Of a stretch of 42,320 nucleotides of DNA, positions 1,515-11,258 are shown piece by piece. The notes under the pieces were generated by a model that was not told the DNA's origin, ran no database searches, and saw nothing but the letters and a program-made list of their open reading frames with translations. The translations under genes and the position numbers were made by a program. Position 1 is the first letter of the stretch, and each line of letters opens with the position of its first letter. Source of the stretch: Gemmatimonadota bacterium (lineage in GTDB: Bacteria > Gemmatimonadota > Gemmatimonadetes > Longimicrobiales > Gaopeijiaceae); contig JAPPNM010000024.1 of the NCBI GenBank assembly GCA_028873825.1, positions 1 through 42,320 on the forward strand, read 5' to 3'.

Positions 1515-2789
1515 ATGGGAAACTACAACCGCCCGCAGGTGCGTCGCATGATGGAGCTCGTCACGGACAGCTCGGTCATGCGGCTCGTTGCGATCACCGG
1601 CCCCCGGCAGACCGGGAAGACGACGATCGCCGTCGCGGCGTGCCGGATGCTGGCCGAGTCGGGCTATCCGTGCTCGTACGTGGCCATGGACGATCCAGCG
1701 CCCGCCCGGCTCCCTTCGCTGGGGCCGCCGGGAGTATTCGAGACGGTTCCGACCGGCGCCGCGCCCGACGGTCAATGGCTTGTCGAGCTGTGGGAAAGGG
1801 CTCGCCGGGCCTCGATCCGGACCGAGCGGGGCCTGGTGCTGGTCCTCGACGAGATTCAGCTCGTACCGCGCTGGTCGGACATCGTGAAGGGACTCTGGGA
1901 CGGGGATCGACGAGCGGGGCACCCGCTCCGGGTCGTGATCCTGGGGTCGGCGCCCTGGCGGATGCTGACCGGGATGAACGAGAGCCTGGCGGGCCGGTTC
2001 GGCGCGTTGCCGGCCACGCACTGGACCCTCCGGGAAATGGCGACGGCCTTTGATCTGACGGTTGACGAGTACGTGTTCCTCGGCGGGTATCCAGGCTCCC
2101 TGTCGGACGGATGGGAAGGCGACGGACTCGCCGCCTGGCGGGACTACGTTACGCGTTCGATCGTCGCACCCGCCATCGGTCGGGACATCGTGGGGCTCGC
2201 ACGCGTCAGGAAACCGGCGCTGTTGCGGCAGTTGATGGATCTGGCGCCTCGGTATTCCGGCCAGCTCATGTCCCACAACAAGCTGCTCGGGGAGCTCCGC
2301 GGCGCTGGCAACACGGCGACCGTCGCCCGGTACCTCGACCTCCTCTCCGACGCGGGTCTCGTCAGCGCCCTGTCCCGCTACACGCCCGCCCCGCACGTGG
2401 GGAGAGCGTCTCCTCCCAAGCTCATCGTCCTCAATACGGCGCTGATGACGGCCCCGTCCGGCTACACGTTCGACGAGGCGCGGGCCGACAGGTCCTATTG
2501 GGGACGGCTTGTCGAAAGCGCGGTGGGTGCGCACCTCCACAACACCCGGGGTAGCGCGACCCGGCTCCACTTCTGGCGCGACCCGCCGCACGAGGTCGAC
2601 TACGTCGTCGCCCGCGGCCCCCGCCTGCTCGGGATCGAAGTCAAGACCGGGAGACCGCGGAGCCGGTCCGGCCTGGACGCCTTCATCCGGCGCTTTCCGG
2701 CCGCCAGGACGGTCGTGGTGGGCCCGGGTGGAGTACCGCTCAACGAATTCCTGTCGCTGAGCGCGGACGACTGGCTGGAGGATGCATGA
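1515..2789 (+). CDS. AAA ATPase with DUF4143 domain (AAA_14 family)
   Basis: This 424-residue protein has a P-loop near residue 29 (ITGPRQTGKTT) and a Walker B near 111 (LVLVLDEIQ). A DUF4143-type region follows, containing the SGQLMSHNKLLGELRGAGNT and YLDLLSDAGLV segments. Near the C-terminus, HEVDYVV and LLGIEVKTG supply the acidic residue and E-x-K of a PD-(D/E)XK-like fold, which is usual for this family. Such ATPases are widespread and often found in mobile or defence regions; their biochemical role is largely unknown. The stop overlaps the next ATG (ATGA at 2786-2789), so the two proteins are probably translationally coupled and act together. The start at 1515 fits the family, whose N-terminus lies just before the P-loop. 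Family assignment is firm; a defence role is inference. Confidence 0.85.
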   Translation: MGNYNRPQVRRMMELVTDSSVMRLVAITGPRQTGKTTIAVAACRMLAESGYPCSYVAMDDPAPARLPSLGPPGVFETVPTGAAPDGQWLVELWERARRASIRTERGLVLVLDEIQLVPRWSDIVKGLWDGDRRAGHPLRVVILGSAPWRMLTGMNESLAGRFGALPATHWTLREMATAFDLTVDEYVFLGGYPGSLSDGWEGDGLAAWRDYVTRSIVAPAIGRDIVGLARVRKPALLRQLMDLAPRYSGQLMSHNKLLGELRGAGNTATVARYLDLLSDAGLVSALSRYTPAPHVGRASPPKLIVLNTALMTAPSGYTFDEARADRSYWGRLVESAVGAHLHNTRGSATRLHFWRDPPHEVDYVVARGPRLLGIEVKTGRPRSRSGLDAFIRRFPAARTVVVGPGGVPLNEFLSLSADDWLEDA

Positions 2790-5700
2790 GCCTGATCGTC
2801 CCCCGCACCGTCACCCTGGTCGAGCCGCGCGACGACAGGCGCCGCGGGCGGCAGGGCCTGTCCCTGAGCGACTTCCGCCCTGACCATGGTTACGTCCTCC
2901 TGGGCGAGCCCGGGATGGGCAAGAGCACGGAGTTCGAGACCGAAGCCGGCCGGACGGGTGCTTCAAGACCCATCGCGGCACAACGCTTCATGAGCCGAGG
3001 CATCGAGAGCCTCCCGGGACCGCGCCAGGGAGTGCCGCTCTTCATCGACGGACTGGACGAGGCCCGCGCCGGCGGTGTGGATCCGAGGAGAACGCTGCAA
3101 AGGATCGTGGCCCGGATCGAGGAGCTGGGAAATCCACGGTTTCGCCTGTCGTGCCGGGCCGGAAGCTGGCTGGGGCCGGGAGACCGGGGGAGACTATCGA
3201 GAGCGGTGGGCGACGCAGGGATTCCGGTCCTGCAGCTGGACCCGCTGTGTCGTGAAGGCGCTCGCCGGATCGTCGCCCGGCGGAGAGACGCCGCCGACGA
3301 GTTCATCCTTGCGGCCTTCGAGCATCGGCTGGACGCGTTCCTCCGGAATCCGCAGCTGCTCGATGTGCTCCTCAGGTCCGTGGAGGCGGCCGGCTGGCCC
3401 GAGACGCCCGGCGCCGCGTTCGAGGGCGCGTGCCGGGAACTGGCCAAGGAACCGAACCTCGAACATCGCGATGCTCGCCAACCGGTCGCGCAACCCTCGC
3501 GAAATGCGCTTCTGAGCGAGGCCGGAAGACTGTCGGCGCTCATGCTGATCGCCGGCAGGGGAGGCTGGACCGCCGCCGACTCCGACGATTCCGACATCAT
3601 CTCTCTGAGTCGGGTGCACGCCGGAAACAGGGAAGCCCTGCTGGCGGCTCTGGACTCCCGGCTCTTCAGAGGTCCCTCCACCCGTCGAGTTCCGGCCCAT
3701 CGGCTCGTGGCCGAGTTCCTGGGTGCACGGTTCCTAGACGAACGGATCCGCGCCTGCGACGGAGTCACCGTCAGGCGCGTGCTGTCGCTGCTGACGGGTG
3801 AAGACGGGATTCCCCTCCCCGACCTCCGGGGGCTGTCCGCCTGGCTCGCCGCCGCGCACCCCTGGGCCCGGGCGTCCCTGATTCGCGCCGATCCGGTCGC
3901 CGTCGCGTTCAACGGCGACGCGAGCGGGTTCACAGCCAAGGAGCGAGGGGATTTGTTCGAAGGCCTCGAGAGGAGTCCCGAGCTGGCTCGCGTCTGGCCT
4001 TCCGCGGTGGCCCTCGGCGCGCTGGCCGAAGGGCGGGGCAGGTCGGCGATCTGGGGGCTGACGGCGTCCTCGTCGCGCGCGGACGCCCGGCAGCACCTCG
4101 TTCTTCGCCTTCTCTCAGGCTTCTCGCGGATGCACCATGCCCGCGCGGAAGCGAGTGGCGATCCACATGCGCACTCGGATTCGGATCGCGTTGCGCTGCT
4201 GGACACTGTTCGCGATCCGACTTGGTGGTCCGATGTCCGGCGTCAGGCCCTTCACGCACTGAATCTGGTTCTCGCGGGTCATCCGACCCGTCGCGCCACG
4301 CTTGGCGGACTCCTGGCGGACATTGGACGTAAGCGGCTCCCGGACGAGCGGAACGAACTCCTCGGCACAATGCTCGACATCATGTATCCCGAAGATCTTC
4401 CGGCGGCGGAAGTCTGGGATCATCTCACCGCCAGCCGGCACCCGCACCACGGCACCTACCGGAAATTCTGGATGGGTCTCGCGGACAGGTCGAGCGACGA
4501 ACGGATCGGGGGATTGCTGGACTCGCTGTGGGACCGCGCATCCGAAGTGGCTCCGCGGCTGAGCGACCACCGGGTGGCCGATGTCGTCCTGAAGCTGCTG
4601 GCCCGCGGGCTCGACCTGTTCGGGAACCGGATGACCGTGCCCGCCGTCCACCGGTGGTTCGATCTTGTGGAAGTTGACCTCCAGCGCTCGCGATTGGTCG
4701 CCGCGGGCAGCTGGAAGCGAGGGGGCGGCGGCCACCACACCGAATCCGAGGAGGCGATCGAGGCTTGGCTGCGGTCGCGCGAGAACGTCCGGTTCGAGCT
4801 GGTCGAATTCGGCCTGCAAGAGCGGGAGTCCGAAATCGGGCGTGTCGCGCTCGATGTGACGATCGGCCGGAAGTTCCTGGGAAGGGAGCCGCCGGCCGGG
4901 GTTCGCCGATGGTGTCTTGCACGCGCGGTGGAGCTTTGCGATGCGCGGCCGAGGATCGCGGAGGAACTCGCCAGGTGGGCGGTCCGCGACCGCGAGGACT
5001 GGCCCCCTCCCGTGCCCGACGACGAAGTCGCGCGGGCCGTAGGGGACACGCCTCCCCTGCGGGAATGGAACAGGAAACGCCTCGAAGGCAAAGCGCGCCG
5101 GGAACACGAGGATGTGGAGAGGAAGCGCCGCCGGGCGGAGGAGCGTCGTCGTTTCGGGAAACGGCGACTGGCCCGGGTCGAACCCGTGCGCCGGCACGCG
5201 AAGCAACTGGCGGTGGGACGGTGCCCGCCGGCCCTGCTCCACGAACTTGCCCAGGTCTACTTCGACGGGGTCGCCGAACACGGACCGGTCAACGGTCCGG
5301 CGGCGGCGCTGGCGGTGCGCCTGGCCGACGACGAGACCCTGGTGGAGGCGGCTCTGGCGGGACTGCGCCGTCTGCCGGAACGCGAGGACCTGCCGGATCT
5401 GACCGAGATCGCGAAACTGCACGAGAAACGGAGACTGTCGTACCTCGTCCTCCCCTTCCTGGCTGGGCTGGCGGAGGACGAGCGTGCCGGGGTCGATCCG
5501 CTGGCCCGGATGGGCAAGCCCGGCAGGCGGCGGGCGTTGGGCTACCATCTCGTTTCGGGACTGCCGAGCAAGCGGTACTCGTCCGGCGGCGGTCCGCCGG
5601 TCGAAAGGGACGCACGTCCCCTCTGGTACCTTCGAGCCCTGGAGTCGCACCCCGGAGCGGTGGCCGACGCCTTCTCCGCAGTGCAACGCGCCCGCGTCCG

Positions 5701-7057
5701 GGCAAAGGATCCACCCGACCGGCACCTGTACGACCTGGCCCTCGATCCGGCATACGGGCGTGTGAGACCCACCGTCGCCGAACGGATGCTCTCAGTCTTC
5801 CCGACGCGATGCACCAAGCCGCAGGTTGAGTCCCTGCGTCTGGTCCTATGGGCCGCTACGGGAGCCGGCGGCATGCCGACCGCCCGGCTGCGCGAGGTCG
5901 TGCTGAGGCGACTCGAGCGCCGCGGGGTCGATGTGGCGCAGCGGGCCCAGTGGCTCGGTGCCGGTTTGTGCGTGGCCAAGGGTGAGTGTCTCCCGTTGCT
6001 GGCGGACTTTCTCGCGACGGGTGGGGAGGCCCGCGTCCGACACGTGGTCGACTTCTTCGTCTCCCACGACCCGCGGCGGCACGGCTCGCTCTCGCTCGAA
6101 GAATGGCGCGACGATGAGCTGGCCGGGCTCATCCGGTCGCTCGGGGGACGCGTGCGCCGATTCGATGCGCCGACGAACGGAGGGTTTCTCGAGGACGAGG
6201 ACGCGGCGCGCATGAAGTTCCAACCCGTGCTGGCCTCATGGATCCGAACGCTCGCCGGGCGTACCAGCGACGAGGCGGCCGACGCGCTGGAATCGCTGGC
6301 CTCCGATCCGGTCCTGGGCCCGTGGAGGACGGAGATCGTCGAGGCCCGGGAGGATCAGGCCATGGAACGCCGCATCGCCGGGCGGGAGACCCTCACGCTG
6401 GAGCAGGTCCAGCATGCGCTGCAGGGCCGCGCCCCCGCGAGCGCCGCGGATCTCGCCGCCCTCTCGCTCGACACCCTCGAACGGCTGGCGGATGACATCC
6501 GGAACGGTCCCACAAGCGACTGGCGCCAATACTGGCACCGCGATCCGGAATCGCGCATACCGGTGAAGCCGCAGCACGAGAACGACTGTCGGGACATGTT
6601 GCTTTCGGACCTGGTCCGGATGCTGCGGCCGTACAACGTCGATGCACGGCCAGGAAGCCGGTATGCCGATGACGCGCGAGCGGACATACGCGTGGCGTTC
6701 GGCCCGGGGCTCGCGATCCCGGTGGAGATCAGGAAGAACTCGCACCGCGACATCTGGCGCGCCGTGGACGAACAGCTGGTGGCGCGGTACGTGCCTGCAC
6801 CGGAGTCCGGCGGTTACGGCATCTATCTGGTGTTCTGGTTCGGGCCCGACTACATGACCGTTGTGCCGCCTCGCGGTCGTCTGCCCACGACACCGGCCAA
6901 GCTGAAGGAACGCCTGGAAGAGCAGCTCGCACCCGGCATCCGGCGCAGAATCGGCATCGTCGTGATCGATGTGTCCCGGTCCGGCAGGTATGCGGGCGAC
7001 AGGGATGTGCCGGCGTCGGCGTCTGTGAGCCGGATCGGTCTGCCGAAGCGAAAGTGA
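2786..7057 (+). CDS. 1423-residue STAND/NACHT-like NTPase with C-terminal PD-(D/E)XK-like domain
   Basis: Near the N-terminus there is a Walker A (LLGEPGMGKST, residue ~39) and a NACHT-type Walker B (VPLFIDGLDEA, residue ~83). About 1100 residues of mostly helical, leucine- and arginine-rich sequence follow, resembling the repeat sensors of STAND proteins. A strongly basic, highly charged helix lies near residues 760-815. The C-terminus (about 1259-1350) looks like a restriction-endonuclease fold: HENDCRD, then ADIRV, then IPVEIRKNSHRDIW, then EQLVARY and GYGIYLVFWFG. The usual E-x-K reads E-I-R followed by K. I infer ligand-sensing ATPase control of a nuclease, as in antiphage STAND proteins, but here the nuclease is C-terminal. 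I do not recognise a named family. Translation is coupled to the DUF4143 ATPase upstream. Confidence 0.75.
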   Translation: MSLIVPRTVTLVEPRDDRRRGRQGLSLSDFRPDHGYVLLGEPGMGKSTEFETEAGRTGASRPIAAQRFMSRGIESLPGPRQGVPLFIDGLDEARAGGVDPRRTLQRIVARIEELGNPRFRLSCRAGSWLGPGDRGRLSRAVGDAGIPVLQLDPLCREGARRIVARRRDAADEFILAAFEHRLDAFLRNPQLLDVLLRSVEAAGWPETPGAAFEGACRELAKEPNLEHRDARQPVAQPSRNALLSEAGRLSALMLIAGRGGWTAADSDDSDIISLSRVHAGNREALLAALDSRLFRGPSTRRVPAHRLVAEFLGARFLDERIRACDGVTVRRVLSLLTGEDGIPLPDLRGLSAWLAAAHPWARASLIRADPVAVAFNGDASGFTAKERGDLFEGLERSPELARVWPSAVALGALAEGRGRSAIWGLTASSSRADARQHLVLRLLSGFSRMHHARAEASGDPHAHSDSDRVALLDTVRDPTWWSDVRRQALHALNLVLAGHPTRRATLGGLLADIGRKRLPDERNELLGTMLDIMYPEDLPAAEVWDHLTASRHPHHGTYRKFWMGLADRSSDERIGGLLDSLWDRASEVAPRLSDHRVADVVLKLLARGLDLFGNRMTVPAVHRWFDLVEVDLQRSRLVAAGSWKRGGGGHHTESEEAIEAWLRSRENVRFELVEFGLQERESEIGRVALDVTIGRKFLGREPPAGVRRWCLARAVELCDARPRIAEELARWAVRDREDWPPPVPDDEVARAVGDTPPLREWNRKRLEGKARREHEDVERKRRRAEERRRFGKRRLARVEPVRRHAKQLAVGRCPPALLHELAQVYFDGVAEHGPVNGPAAALAVRLADDETLVEAALAGLRRLPEREDLPDLTEIAKLHEKRRLSYLVLPFLAGLAEDERAGVDPLARMGKPGRRRALGYHLVSGLPSKRYSSGGGPPVERDARPLWYLRALESHPGAVADAFSAVQRARVRAKDPPDRHLYDLALDPAYGRVRPTVAERMLSVFPTRCTKPQVESLRLVLWAATGAGGMPTARLREVVLRRLERRGVDVAQRAQWLGAGLCVAKGECLPLLADFLATGGEARVRHVVDFFVSHDPRRHGSLSLEEWRDDELAGLIRSLGGRVRRFDAPTNGGFLEDEDAARMKFQPVLASWIRTLAGRTSDEAADALESLASDPVLGPWRTEIVEAREDQAMERRIAGRETLTLEQVQHALQGRAPASAADLAALSLDTLERLADDIRNGPTSDWRQYWHRDPESRIPVKPQHENDCRDMLLSDLVRMLRPYNVDARPGSRYADDARADIRVAFGPGLAIPVEIRKNSHRDIWRAVDEQLVARYVPAPESGGYGIYLVFWFGPDYMTVVPPRGRLPTTPAKLKERLEEQLAPGIRRRIGIVVIDVSRSGRYAGDRDVPASASVSRIGLPKRK

Positions 7058-7093
7058 ACGGGTTGCGGCTGCGCAGGAAGGTGGTGTCGACGG

Positions 7094-8855
7094 TCACGGG
7101 GCGCCCCCGCCGCGACCGGAGTACGGGCGGTACTCCACCAGCGCCGACTTGCCGGAGACGTCGACGATCACCGCCGACAAGTCCGTCCCGAAGGAGTCCG
7201 TGAGGCGGAGCGGCTTCCCCAGGCGAAATGGCACCGGCTGCCGACGTCCCTCGTCGATGGCGATGTGGGCCGCGTACAGATAGGTCCGGTCGAAGCTGTC
7301 GCGCACGGGGTTCAAGCTGCCGTCCAAGCCCGGCAGGCGGCCTGATCCCTCGGCGAAGATCGCTCCGCCACCGCCGGACAGCGGACTCAGCTCCAGTGCC
7401 AGACCCTCCCGATCCGGTCTCCACTCGCGCGCTATCCCTGCGCAATAGCCCGGGGCCGCGGCGTAGACGGTCATCGGCAAGTGCGTCGTGTAGAGGTCCA
7501 GAGTTGGCCCGGCCGGCCTCGTCGGTGGTTGCCCGCCGCCATGTGTTGTTCGGGAACAGGGCCAACACTTCGACGTCCATCAACGGGGTTCCCCGGGAAT
7601 GCACCGTGACCCCCGACCGGGCGGGCGTCAGCTCGAGACGGGCGGCCGGGATGCTGAGGAACAGGCTCGATCCGCCCACGAGCGTGTACCGCGGGGACAC
7701 GCCGGCCACGCTTCGGGTCCCTCTCTTGATGATCGAGACCCCGTCCCCGCGGCGCTCCATCAGATACCGTCGGTGGTCGGACCCGGGCACCTCGCCTACC
7801 GGGATGCGGCCGAACACGGACGCGATGACCTCGTTTCGGGTGGACTGGCCGGCGGCCATGCCGTCGATGGTCATGTTGTTCGGCAGAGCACCGGGAGAGT
7901 CGATCTCCAAGCGGTCCCTAAACATGGCCAGCCGGATCCGCTGCGAGGCGATGGAGTAGTACCGGTGGGCCACGGCGTTGACCACCGCCTCGAAGACCGC
8001 TTTCGCGCTGTACTGCGGCATATCGACCCGCATCGGCGTCTTGCGCGCGGCAACACGCATGTTGCGCACCACGAAATGCACCGCTTCGGCGATCTGGCGC
8101 TGCAGGGGCCCACCGATCTCCTGTGCGTCCAACTGGGCGGAGGCGCGATCCTCGCCCCGATAGTGCGTGGCCACGATCATCGCGTGCCGCAGCCACTCCT
8201 GCGGCTCCCGCGCACACAGCAGCACGCCCGCCACGGTGGCCCTGAGCACACGGTTCTCGTCCTCCGCGAGCAGGCGGAGCCTCGTCAGGCCAGCGCGAGG
8301 ATCCGCAGCCCCCGTCACGCTCAGCAGCGGCTCCCAGAGACGCTCGCTGAGTGTCTCATACCCCGTTCCCAGGACGATCTGCTCGTCGAACCACAGGTAG
8401 CGGGCCTGGCCTCGCCGCCGCGCCAGCCGGAGCTGCTCATCGGTAGACATCCTGCGCTTGGTGCCGCCTACGCGAATGAAGCTCCCGCCGGGGCCACGAT
8501 GGTGCGCATCCCCTTTGGGCACGTCCACCGCCAGCACCGCGCCCCCATCCGGCAGCCGCATGTGATGCGTCTGTATCGGCACCGGCGGTTTGATGGAGTC
8601 CGTGCCTACCTCCGCCAACACGTTGTCCAAGGCCGCAAGCTGACCCCTCGTCAAGCTCTGCACTCGCCCGTCGTCGGTCACGCCGCAAAGCACCGCCCCG
8701 CCCCGTGAATTCGCGAACGCGACGACCTCGTCGGCGAGGACGTCGCGCTTCGGGCTCTTCAGCTTGGTTCCCGCGAATTCAACCTGCTTGAACTCCCAGC
8801 GGCTGTCCTCGCCGAGCTCGATACGGTCGAGAATCTCCCGCGCCGAGTAAATCAT
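7094..8855 (-). pseudogene. AlbA_2-domain protein of type I restriction module, frameshifted
   Basis: The ATG at 8855 overlaps the hsdM stop (ATGA). The N-terminus is an AlbA_2 (Schlafen AAA_4-type) nucleic-acid-binding domain (WEFKQVEFAG, NSRGGAVLCGVTDDG). It is followed by RVGGTKRRMS, an HATPase/winged-helix-like region (FEAVVNAVAHR, DRLEIDSPG) and a long C-terminal domain. Frame is lost near 7501-7506, after TDEAGRA. One extra base there separates it from LDLYTTHLPMTVYAAAPGY and the remaining C-terminus to 7094. Removing one base restores 586 codons. Proteins of this type accompany hsdM in some type I restriction operons; their role is unsettled. Damage could be real decay or a sequencing indel, but the neighbouring 4-kb genes are intact. 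It converges on the large NTPase gene with a 36-base gap. Confidence 0.75.
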
Positions 8856-10404
8856 CGCCCACCCCCAAACCCCAGCATCTTCAGATTCCTGGTGATCGCG
8901 GCGTCGAGCCGAGCGCCTTCGGCCTGCTGTTCCCGCAGCTCCGAGACCAGCCGCTTCATCTTGTCCTCGAACGGCTCCCCGTCGTCCTCCTGCGGCTCCA
9001 CGCCGACGTACCGGCCAGGCGTCAGCACATGCCCGTGCTTGCGCACTTCGTCCAGCGAGGCGCTCTTGCAGAAGCCGGGAACATCGGCGTAGCCGTCCCC
9101 GTCCTCTCCCGTCCGCCACGCGTGGTAGGTCTCCGCGATCCGCGCGATGTCCTCCGGCGTCAGTTCGCGGTGCGTCCGGTCCACCATTCGGCCGAGCTTC
9201 CGGGCGTCGACGAAGAGGACCTCACCCCGCCGCTCGCGCCCGCGCGCCAGAAACCACAGGCAGGCCGGTATCTGCGTCGAGTAGAAGAGTTGGCCCGGCA
9301 GAGCGACCATGCAATCGACCAATTCGGCCTCGACCAGGTTCTTCCGGATCTCGCCCTCGCCCGACTGCTGCGACGACATCGAACCGTTGGCCAGCACGAA
9401 CCCCGCGACGCCCTTCGGCGCGAGGTGGTGGCCCATGTGCTGGACCCAGGCGAAGTTCGCGTTCCCCTTCGGCGGGACGCCGTAGCGCCAGCGCTTGTCG
9501 TCTGCCAGCCGCTCCCCTCCCCAGTCCGAGACGTTGAACGGGGGATTGGCGAGGATGTAGTCGGCCTTCAGGTCCGGGTGGCGGTCGTTGTGGAAGGTGT
9601 CGCCGTGGGCGATCTGCCCCCCGATCCCGCGTATCGCCAAGTTCATCTTCGCGAGGCGCCACGTCGTATAGTTCGACTCCTGGCCGTAGATCGAGATGTC
9701 GCCCCCGCGCGTTGCCGCCGTTCGCGTTGCCGCCGGCGTGGGCGCGAATGAACTCGACCGACTGCACGAACATCCCCGAGGAGCCGCAGCAGGGATCGTA
9801 GACGCGGCCACGATACGGTTCCAGCATCTCGACGAGTAGCCGGACGACGCAGCGGGGGGTGTGGAACTCCCCTCCCCTCTTCCCCTCGGCGCTCGCGAAC
9901 TGCGAGAGGAAGTACTCGTACACGCGCCCGAGCACGTCCTTCGAACGGGCCTCGGCGTCCCCCACGCGGATGTTGCCGACCATGTCGATCAGCTGACCCA
10001 GGCGCTGCTTGTCCAGCGCGGGCCGCGCGTAATCCTTGGGCAGCACCTCCTTCAGCGCCGGGTTGTCCCGTTCGATGGCCGCCATGGCCCGGTCAACGGT
10101 CTGGCCGATGATGGGCTGCCGCGCCCCGGCCCTCAGGCGCTCCCAACGGGCCTCCGCCGGCACCCAGAAGATGTTCTCCGCGATGTACTCGTCCCGGTCC
10201 TCGGCGGCCTCTTCTCCCCACTCGGCCAGCACCGCCGCGCGGCGCTCCTCGAAGGCGTCCGAGATGTACTTGAGGAAGACGAGCCCGAGCACGACATGCT
10301 TGTATTCGCCGGCATCCATCGAGCCGCGGAGCGCGTCGGCCATCGCCCACAGCTCGGCCTCGTAGCCGGTCGTGGCTCCGCTGGTCGGTCCGTCTGCCGG
10401 CCAT
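8852..10404 (-). pseudogene. hsdM: Type I restriction-modification DNA methyltransferase subunit HsdM, two frameshifts
   Basis: This is the N6-adenine methyltransferase subunit of a type I restriction system. The helical N-terminus ([28 protein letters not shown]), the cofactor motif [13 protein letters not shown], the catalytic NPPFN and the tail [13 protein letters not shown] are all present but not in one frame. At 9702-9706 a run of five C (G on the coding strand) replaces four. NARG then continues as RHLDL instead of [12 protein letters not shown], cutting motif I from NPPF. A second extra base at 10383-10384 follows the likely start ATG at 10404 (MAGRRTD then SGATTGYE). Removing both bases gives 516 residues, the normal HsdM size. 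An unshifted alternative starts near 10538 but has a foreign N-terminus. No hsdS or hsdR is in the window. Confidence 0.8.
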
Positions 10405-10517
10405 CCTGGGGCCCTGTCCGCCTTTCCGTTGCGTCGTACGAATCCCGGATCCGGATCCCAACCAAGATACGACGGGCGGCGCGGTGCGGTACACCTTCTT
10501 CGTCGCATCCGGAAGAC

Positions 10518-10551
10518 TTGACACGACATGACCGTCACCGAGACTGGTCAT
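10518..10551 (+). promoter_or_regulatory. Promoter and operator-like inverted repeat of the toxin-antitoxin pair
   Basis: A perfect -35-type TTGACA (10518-10523) is followed by the inverted repeat ATGACC (10528-10533) and GGTCAT (10546-10551), 12 bases apart. The repeat ends directly at the antitoxin ATG (10552). Antitoxins of the Phd/YefM type usually repress their own operon by binding such palindromes, so this is the expected autoregulatory site. No clear -10 box is visible. Confidence 0.5.
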
Positions 10552-10863
10552 ATGGAATCGATCAACGCATCCTACTTCAAGGCGCGCTGCCTGAAGATCC
10601 TCGACCGCGTGCGGGAGACGGGCGAACGCATCGTGATTCTCAAGCGGGGCCGGCCGGTGGCGGAGCTATGGCCTCCCAGCCAAACCGAATCGAAGTACCC
10701 GCAATCGGAGCTGAAAGGCACGGTTACCGTCGTCGGTGACATCGTCGGTCCGGTGGTGCCGGAGCACGACTGGGACAGCCTGAAGGGCACGGGCGGAATC
10801 GAGGAGTCGGGCGGAGAAGCCAACGATCCCCGCAAGCAACCGCACCGGCTGGCCGGAGAGTGA
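10552..10863 (+). CDS. Type II antitoxin, Phd/YefM family
   Basis: The N-terminus INASYFKARCLKILDRVRET is the DNA-binding fold of Phd/YefM antitoxins, continuing as GERIVILKRGRPVAELWP, the usual end of that domain. The remaining 55 or so residues are hydrophilic and should be the flexible toxin-neutralising tail. The start at 10552 puts the conserved region right at the N-terminus, as in relatives; an in-frame ATG at 10528 would add eight residues and has a GGAAG at 10511. The stop overlaps the toxin start as GTGA (10860-10863). The partner is a PIN-domain toxin, a common pairing. It is transcribed divergently from hsdM, suggesting a defence-region stabiliser. Confidence 0.8.
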   Translation: MESINASYFKARCLKILDRVRETGERIVILKRGRPVAELWPPSQTESKYPQSELKGTVTVVGDIVGPVVPEHDWDSLKGTGGIEESGGEANDPRKQPHRLAGE

Positions 10864-11258
10864 CCGCGCTGCTCGACACCCATGTCCTGATCTGGTGGCT
10901 TCAGGGCGAGGGCCCGTTGTCGGCGGCGCAGCACAGCGTCCTGAACGCAGCGGACGGGAACTCGCCGCTACGGGTCTCCGACATTTCGCTCTGGGAGACC
11001 GCGACTCTTCACAGCCTGGGCCGCATCCAGCTTGCGATGCCGCTCCGTGAATGGCTGGAGAAAGCGGTGGCCCCACCCTTGGTTCGGCGGCACGGGATCT
11101 CGCCGGCGATCGCGACGGAGGTGGCGGCCCTGCCTGATTCCTTTCACCGTGACCCCGCAGATCGGATTCTGGTCGCGACGGCACGGATTCTCGGAGCGAC
11201 GCTGCTGACACGGGACCGCCATATCCTCGAGTCCGGCTTGGTCACAGCGCTGAGCTGA
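10860..11258 (+). CDS. vapC: PIN-domain ribonuclease toxin, VapC family
   Basis: This 132-residue protein has the PIN acidic residues in order: D in LLDTHVLIWW (residue ~6), E in ISLWETA (~46), D in DPADRILVATA (~97) and D in LLTRDRHIL (~118). These coordinate metal for RNA cleavage. The length is typical of VapC. It uses a GTG start overlapping the antitoxin stop, so synthesis is coupled to the antitoxin. The family usually cuts tRNA or rRNA; the target here cannot be predicted. Nothing looks damaged, in contrast to the restriction genes beside it. Confidence 0.85.
   Translation: MTALLDTHVLIWWLQGEGPLSAAQHSVLNAADGNSPLRVSDISLWETATLHSLGRIQLAMPLREWLEKAVAPPLVRRHGISPAIATEVAALPDSFHRDPADRILVATARILGATLLTRDRHILESGLVTALS

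Follow-up and report, generated by a model that had tools for sequence, protein, structure and literature searches.

On contig JAPPNM010000024.1 of a Gemmatimonadota bacterium (GCA_028873825.1), a gene for a DUF4143 ATPase-nuclease is translationally coupled to a gene for an EruA-like NACHT protein, and among the nearer relatives of this pair the DUF4143 protein is a near-constant, dedicated partner of the EruA-like protein. The window, meaning the whole stretch of DNA that was analysed, spans 42,320 nucleotides read on the forward strand, and both genes lie on its + strand: P0001 (1515..2789; 424 amino acids) is of the PDC-S01 type of the PADLOC collection, and P0002 (2786..7057; 1423 amino acids) is recognised by the NCBIfam model NF058535 (EruA, "NACHT domain-containing antiphage protein"). 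Direct reading of the DNA confirmed both frames and the ATGA shared by the start of one and the stop of the other (2786..2789), on which a first-pass annotation of the stretch had based its proposal of coupling. With about an even chance of being right, we infer from these features an EruA-type immune operon of two genes, in which a STAND/NACHT switch would act with a DUF4143 partner. The antiphage naming of EruA is already known, and the near-constant DUF4143 partnership is the new part.

The partnership is most regular in the genus of the window, where P0002 has a match at E ≤ 1e-50 in 19 of 23 genomes. Wherever a match includes the N-terminus, which is so for 34 matches spread over 18 genomes with no more than 4 in any one, the gene immediately upstream encodes DUF4143. 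Seen from the other side, an EruA-like gene immediately follows 34 of the 48 DUF4143 matches in the genus (E ≤ 1e-60); the remaining 14 are three frames of 861-868 amino acids of the fusion type described below, six frames of 407 amino acids at 44-46% identity, four partial matches and one full-length match (G139:C8, a frame of 465 amino acids). Among named genomes, sampled as the best 80 of 342 loci and hence biased towards this clade, DUF4143 adjoins the EruA-like gene in 75, including one locus (L111) in which it is present as an 85-residue piece next to a partial EruA match; two of the others (L155, L162) are cut at contig ends. Co-occurrence of the two genes across genomes, which the first-pass annotation had named as a check on its proposal, is thus borne out. 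The search for pairs took in 113 loci, 86 of which hold both genes at full length; 79 of these are non-identical, with distances between the genes of -4 in 52, +2 in 13, -1 in five and other values in nine. In a co-divergence set of again 79 pairs, obtained by dropping L149 (distance 326) and adding the pair of the window, the distances of the partners co-vary closely (Mantel r 0.872; none of 2000 permutations was as high, the highest being 0.096), a correlation of a kind that co-inheritance of adjacent genes would also yield.

The identity of the large protein follows from its alignment with the EruA model, which it matches with an E-value of 1.2e-211 over residues 21-1397, corresponding to positions 11-1318 of the 1318 in the model. 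The description of the operon as uncharacterised therefore does not hold for P0002, a full-length relative of a protein already named as antiphage, although its score of 706.1 bits (705.9 in a second search) stays below the curated cut-off of 1000. P0002 shares with EruA the NACHT and the C-terminal PD-(D/E)XK-like domain, and differs in having a DUF4143 partner, which was not seen near the two highest-scoring EruA genes among those found. The similarly long HyoA (NF058534), also a NACHT antiphage protein by name, is matched over residues 941-1355 (E 8.2e-22), at 76.7 bits far below its cut-off of 1200. At E ≤ 1, no Pfam or PADLOC model and no PDB sequence matched P0002, and PF28130 is the precomputed annotation on most of its homologues among the 120 listed of 1721 hits. 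The NACHT-like NTPase that had been read from the sequence is well founded: both motifs expected of EruA are present, specifically a Walker A (GEPGMGKS, 2903..2926, + strand) whose K46 is found in 79 of 79 pairs, and a NACHT-type Walker B (LFIDGLDE, 3038..3061, + strand) whose D88, D91 and E92 are equally invariant. In Avs systems a STAND NTPase is joined to a nuclease, and the effectors are N-terminal. The nuclease fold of P0002 is instead modelled at the C-terminus, as had been proposed, and an identity with Avs was rejected because the NACHT P-loop, which begins at residue 40, leaves no room for an N-terminal nuclease and because of the missing PADLOC match. In the open PMC literature, no paper was found that describes EruA or HyoA by name or that links DUF4143 with a NACHT protein, and neither "Eru" nor "Hyo" occurs in the main text of PMC13092281.

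The smaller protein is equally recognisable, with Pfam matches to AAA_14 (1.6e-16, 60.9 bits against a gathering score of 27) and DUF4143 (2.2e-24, 86.5 bits against 28.1) and a match to the PADLOC PDC-S01 model PDLC04791 (6.4e-127) over residues 4-420 of 424. Its Walker A (GPRQTGKTT, 1599..1625, + strand) has G29, R31, Q32, G34, K35 and T36 in all 79 pairs, as does its Walker B (VLDEIQ, 1842..1859, + strand) D112 and E113. The intact D/E-x-K site claimed for it is indeed kept: E334, D362 and E375-x-K377 (2514..2645, + strand) form a PD-(D/E)XK-type site in which E334 is found in 79 of 79 pairs and each of the other three residues in 78. The model of P0001 gives a helix-strand-strand-strand-helix-strand order around this site that, like the conserved residues, fits such a fold; the fold search chiefly spanned residues 1-341, and a PD-(D/E)XK fold in the DUF4143 part is supported less directly than that of the P0002 C-terminus. 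The ATPase half of the model is similar to Orc1/Cdc6, RFC and archaeal AAA+ ATPases, and the PDB sequence matches of P0001 are limited to RecA and ATP synthase P-loops. According to PMC12988326, PDC-S01 is an ATPase fused to PD-(D/E)XK, an architecture that P0001 probably shares, and ranks fourth in frequency among the defence annotations of prokaryotes, with validation pending for most such candidate systems. PDC-S01 is filed as a single-gene candidate, as we read the S in its name, whereas P0001 is half of a two-gene unit. A DUF4143 gene of Thermus is listed downstream of a CRISPR array in PMC4406477, and no other paper naming DUF4143 was found in the open PMC literature.

Several loci weigh against a strictly obligate link. 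Within the best 80, L130, L137 and L163 have no DUF4143 despite 8000, 8000 and 2137 bases of upstream sequence; plasmid-borne relatives (L036-L039), at 22-25% identity, have none in flanks of 6-8 kb; and in a sample of 369 genomes from the class of a Nitrosomonas, where 19 match NF058535 at E ≤ 1e-20, the two genes that exceed the cut-off (1439 and 1318 bits) have none in flanks of about 9 kb on the upstream and 6 kb on the downstream side. In the same sample, the partial match of G457 does have a DUF4143 gene (43% identity); no such gene is seen in the short flank of the partial match of G562, which contains a stop, and the match of G299 is truncated on its N-terminal side. The obligate link to a second ATPase put forward by the first-pass annotation thus stands as near-obligate in the nearer relatives and fails in the wider family, which has uncoupled members. 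In a FastTree phylogeny of 88 proteins, whose branches are long, a split with support 1.0 sets the six uncoupled outliers apart, and L130 and L163 fall among the coupled proteins as if their partner had been lost. Coupling is a lineage trait that is separate from the boundary of the EruA family, because coupled and uncoupled proteins both pass 1000 bits: of five coupled proteins that were scored, three (L159, L153 and L148) reach 1012-1048 bits, and the uncoupled plasmid protein L038 reaches 1035. L130 and L137 belong to one Dehalococcoidia assembly, in which EruA-like genes with the same first 120 residues and the same length occupy two places, each just after what by eye resembles a serine recombinase gene (L130:7269-7835, L137:7309-7836); this EruA-like gene may be mobile.

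Natural fusions suggest that DUF4143 works together with one part of the large protein, the region of amino acids 738-1193 (4997..6364, + strand). In five assemblies (L040-L044), DUF4143 is fused to a segment that matches only about this region, in proteins of 851-866 amino acids without the NACHT and without the EruA nuclease. A database search with the region retrieved 59 proteins; the first 25 all carry DUF4143 and are 841-887 amino acids long except for two of 620 and 822, and most of the other 34 are EruA-like. The region also stands alone, in proteins of 377-418 amino acids from genomes of the Nitrosomonas class (L178:1483-2628, L179:1498-2631, L180:1390-2646, L174:1474-2715) whose match to the EruA model is confined to about positions 730-1124. 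A further search gave 36 proteins of this length class; two stand-alone proteins tested have NCBIfam matches, and three tested had no Pfam match. In G099 and G128, two of the five fusion-bearing genomes and members of a sample of 298 genomes of the phylum, a DUF4143 fusion is the only EruA-model match reported.

These fusions bear on what the partner does. The main rival on this point holds that DUF4143 is a safeguard, chaperone or antitoxin-like, which silences the NACHT nuclease and is not itself an effector. Its upstream position and translational coupling would suit such a function, as would its higher conservation (mean pairwise identity of 0.54 across the 79 pairs, against 0.36 for EruA), yet a pure inhibitor would not need the nuclease residues that DUF4143 keeps almost without exception, some EruA relatives exist without it, and the fusions lack the NACHT and the nuclease that would have to be restrained, so that a safeguard appears unlikely. 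Since constraint on its nuclease site equals that on its ATPase site, DUF4143 most likely serves as a co-effector or as a licensing subunit. Across the 79 pairs, both ATPase sites and both nuclease sites are near-invariant: catalytic changes are confined to EruA in six operons (the window included; two of the changes are E to D) and to DUF4143 in three. No operon is altered on both sides, an outcome that is uninformative since about 0.2 would be expected by chance.

The C-terminal PD-(D/E)XK-like domain attributed to P0002 was recovered by structure prediction, with modest confidence. Modelled alone, the C-terminal region of 266 amino acids (6203..7000, + strand; mean predicted local distance difference test score, pLDDT, 87.6) contains an alpha-beta-beta-beta-alpha-beta core similar to solved PD-(D/E)XK members at modest scores, and the outcome that would have spoken against the proposal, a C-terminus without the nuclease fold, did not occur in the model or in the structural search. 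The copy of the window is odd at two catalytic positions. Codon 1290 (6653..6655, + strand) is Gly where 75 of 79 pairs have Glu, and codon 1316 (6731..6733, + strand), which elsewhere supplies the K of E-x-K, is Arg where 78 of 79 have Lys. In an alignment of 121 proteins, namely P0002 and the 120 listed homologues, 118 have K at position 1316, two (P0002 and P0003) have R and one has a gap; at position 1290, 116 have E, three G, one A and one a gap. P0003 is a 98% identical cluster of 11 member sequences with the same R1316. E1265, D1300 and E1314 are kept; G1290 and R1316 depart from the catalytic residues of EruA, and since they replace near-invariant residues the nuclease of this copy is doubtful and perhaps impaired. 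The proposed C-terminal effector is accordingly upheld as a fold and weakened as a working part of this particular copy. The ATPase residues of P0002 and the whole DUF4143 site of P0001 are intact here.

The copy of the window might then be a decaying or regulatory paralogue whose NACHT and helical parts still sense while its C-terminal nuclease is dead, a reading to which we give a real, though minority, chance. The two substitutions, with an arginine seen only in P0002 and its near-identical cluster, would fit it, as would two further pairs in the same genome and a neighbouring restriction gene that looks broken; set against these are the intact frame of 1423 codons with its ATPase residues, the 11 sequences behind P0003, by which the R1316 variant is not an error of a single assembly, and the prospect that catalysis could still rely on the arginine or on the next lysine along. 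Among relatives for which DNA sequence was available, the nearest is 56% identical. The further pairs, themselves diverged, lie on contig C44 within about 22 kb (L005:3544-8957 and L006:1542-7075), and between them is a more distant DUF4143 ATPase (L005:9777-10970; 27% identity).

EruA-like loci come from genomes recorded as Rhodothermales, Gemmatimonadetes, Caldilineales, Bryobacterales, Latescibacteria, Nitrospinota, Binatia, Dadabacteria and iron-oxidising proteobacteria, and judging from their names many of the source isolates look like sponge metagenomes. When 59 EruA rows representing 12 phyla are placed on a FastTree tree, at least 24 phylum changes are needed, against 23 on the corresponding DUF4143 tree; mis-binned contigs may have added some of these. 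In the phylum sample, 61 of 298 genomes match NF058535 at E ≤ 0.001, a figure that includes many short P-loop matches near E 1e-4 and is not a count of systems; none of the 298 exceeds the cut-off of the model. This distribution bears on whether the pair acts on plasmid DNA or in repair or replication instead of on phages. The likeness of the ATPase half to Orc1/Cdc6, RFC and archaeal AAA+ ATPases points that way, and isolated DUF4143 relatives of Thermus and Bacteroides adjoin metabolic genes, but NCBIfam names EruA antiphage, and the patchy, multi-copy, cross-phylum distribution is unlike that of housekeeping genes, which leaves such a function improbable.

The surroundings of the pair agree with the restriction and toxin-antitoxin neighbourhood described for it. 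An N6-methylase (HsdM-like) piece at 8852-9811 on the - strand lies beside a longer open reading frame in another frame (9222-10538), and the restriction gene at 8852-10538 (- strand) looks broken from its reading frames. An open reading frame at 6729-9119 (- strand) encodes a Schlafen/AlbA_2 protein with a RecG-type HATPase_c_4 domain, and the 3' ends of this frame and of the EruA-like gene overlap in antisense; another AlbA_2 piece is at 820-1137, and a Phd/YefM antitoxin and PIN toxin pair (10528-11258, + strand) stands between the island and metH. A PADLOC scan (E ≤ 1e-10) of 115 of the 116 proteins encoded around 20 loci, which set aside the final gene of L068 as open at a contig end, hit 200 models, and one of 79 proteins from 20 arbitrarily chosen control regions hit 90, the counts being per model and not per protein; the control regions also contained defence genes (type III methylase, SIR2/HerA, PDC-S01 and others), and no enrichment is claimed from this comparison. 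metH is present in 22 of 23 genus genomes, and besides the genome of the window only G017 and G058 have a listed EruA match on the metH contig, more than 1.5 Mb away, in a comparison limited by contig ends; the genomic site of the pair near metH looks variable within the genus. A different origin had been suspected from a guanine-plus-cytosine (GC) content of 63% in the large gene and 70% in metH, as counted in short samples. Foreign origin on this ground was rejected as stated, the whole-gene contrast being small (69.2% for the P0001 gene, 69.1% for the P0002 gene and 71.2% for metH), and what is left is a small difference at third positions (0.86 and 0.80, respectively, compared with 0.89 in a pool of nine other window genes).

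In the two-gene immune operon that we propose, the NACHT ATPase of P0002, assigned by its motifs, would be held off until the variable helical middle senses an invader. P0002 would then oligomerise through its NACHT, as NACHT biology suggests, and the oligomer would license the C-terminal PD-(D/E)XK nuclease, whose fold is supported by the model, to cut nucleic acid. P0001, a CED-4/Orc-like ATPase with its own PD-(D/E)XK-type site, probably docks on amino acids 738-1193, to judge from the fusions, and would act there as co-effector or licensing subunit. In the copy of the window, cutting may rest on the DUF4143 subunit, or the copy may be losing its function. A bolder and more tentative form of this proposal is a dual-nuclease complex, in which an EruA-type NACHT receptor carries a PDC-S01 ATPase-nuclease docked on its helical region and thereby brings together two different STAND-like ATPases.

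The near-constant partner gives a testable job to one branch of the large PDC-S01 family, and the existence of coupled, fused and uncoupled forms offers natural experiments on the way a bacterial NACHT receptor could recruit a second ATPase-nuclease. If the dual-nuclease complex is real, PDC-S01 would be the movable half of such complexes and the natural fusions would be their single-chain versions. Moreover, one genus has genomes with as many as four diverged copies, which recalls NLR repertoires, and the repeated copies would then be an NLR-like receptor repertoire.

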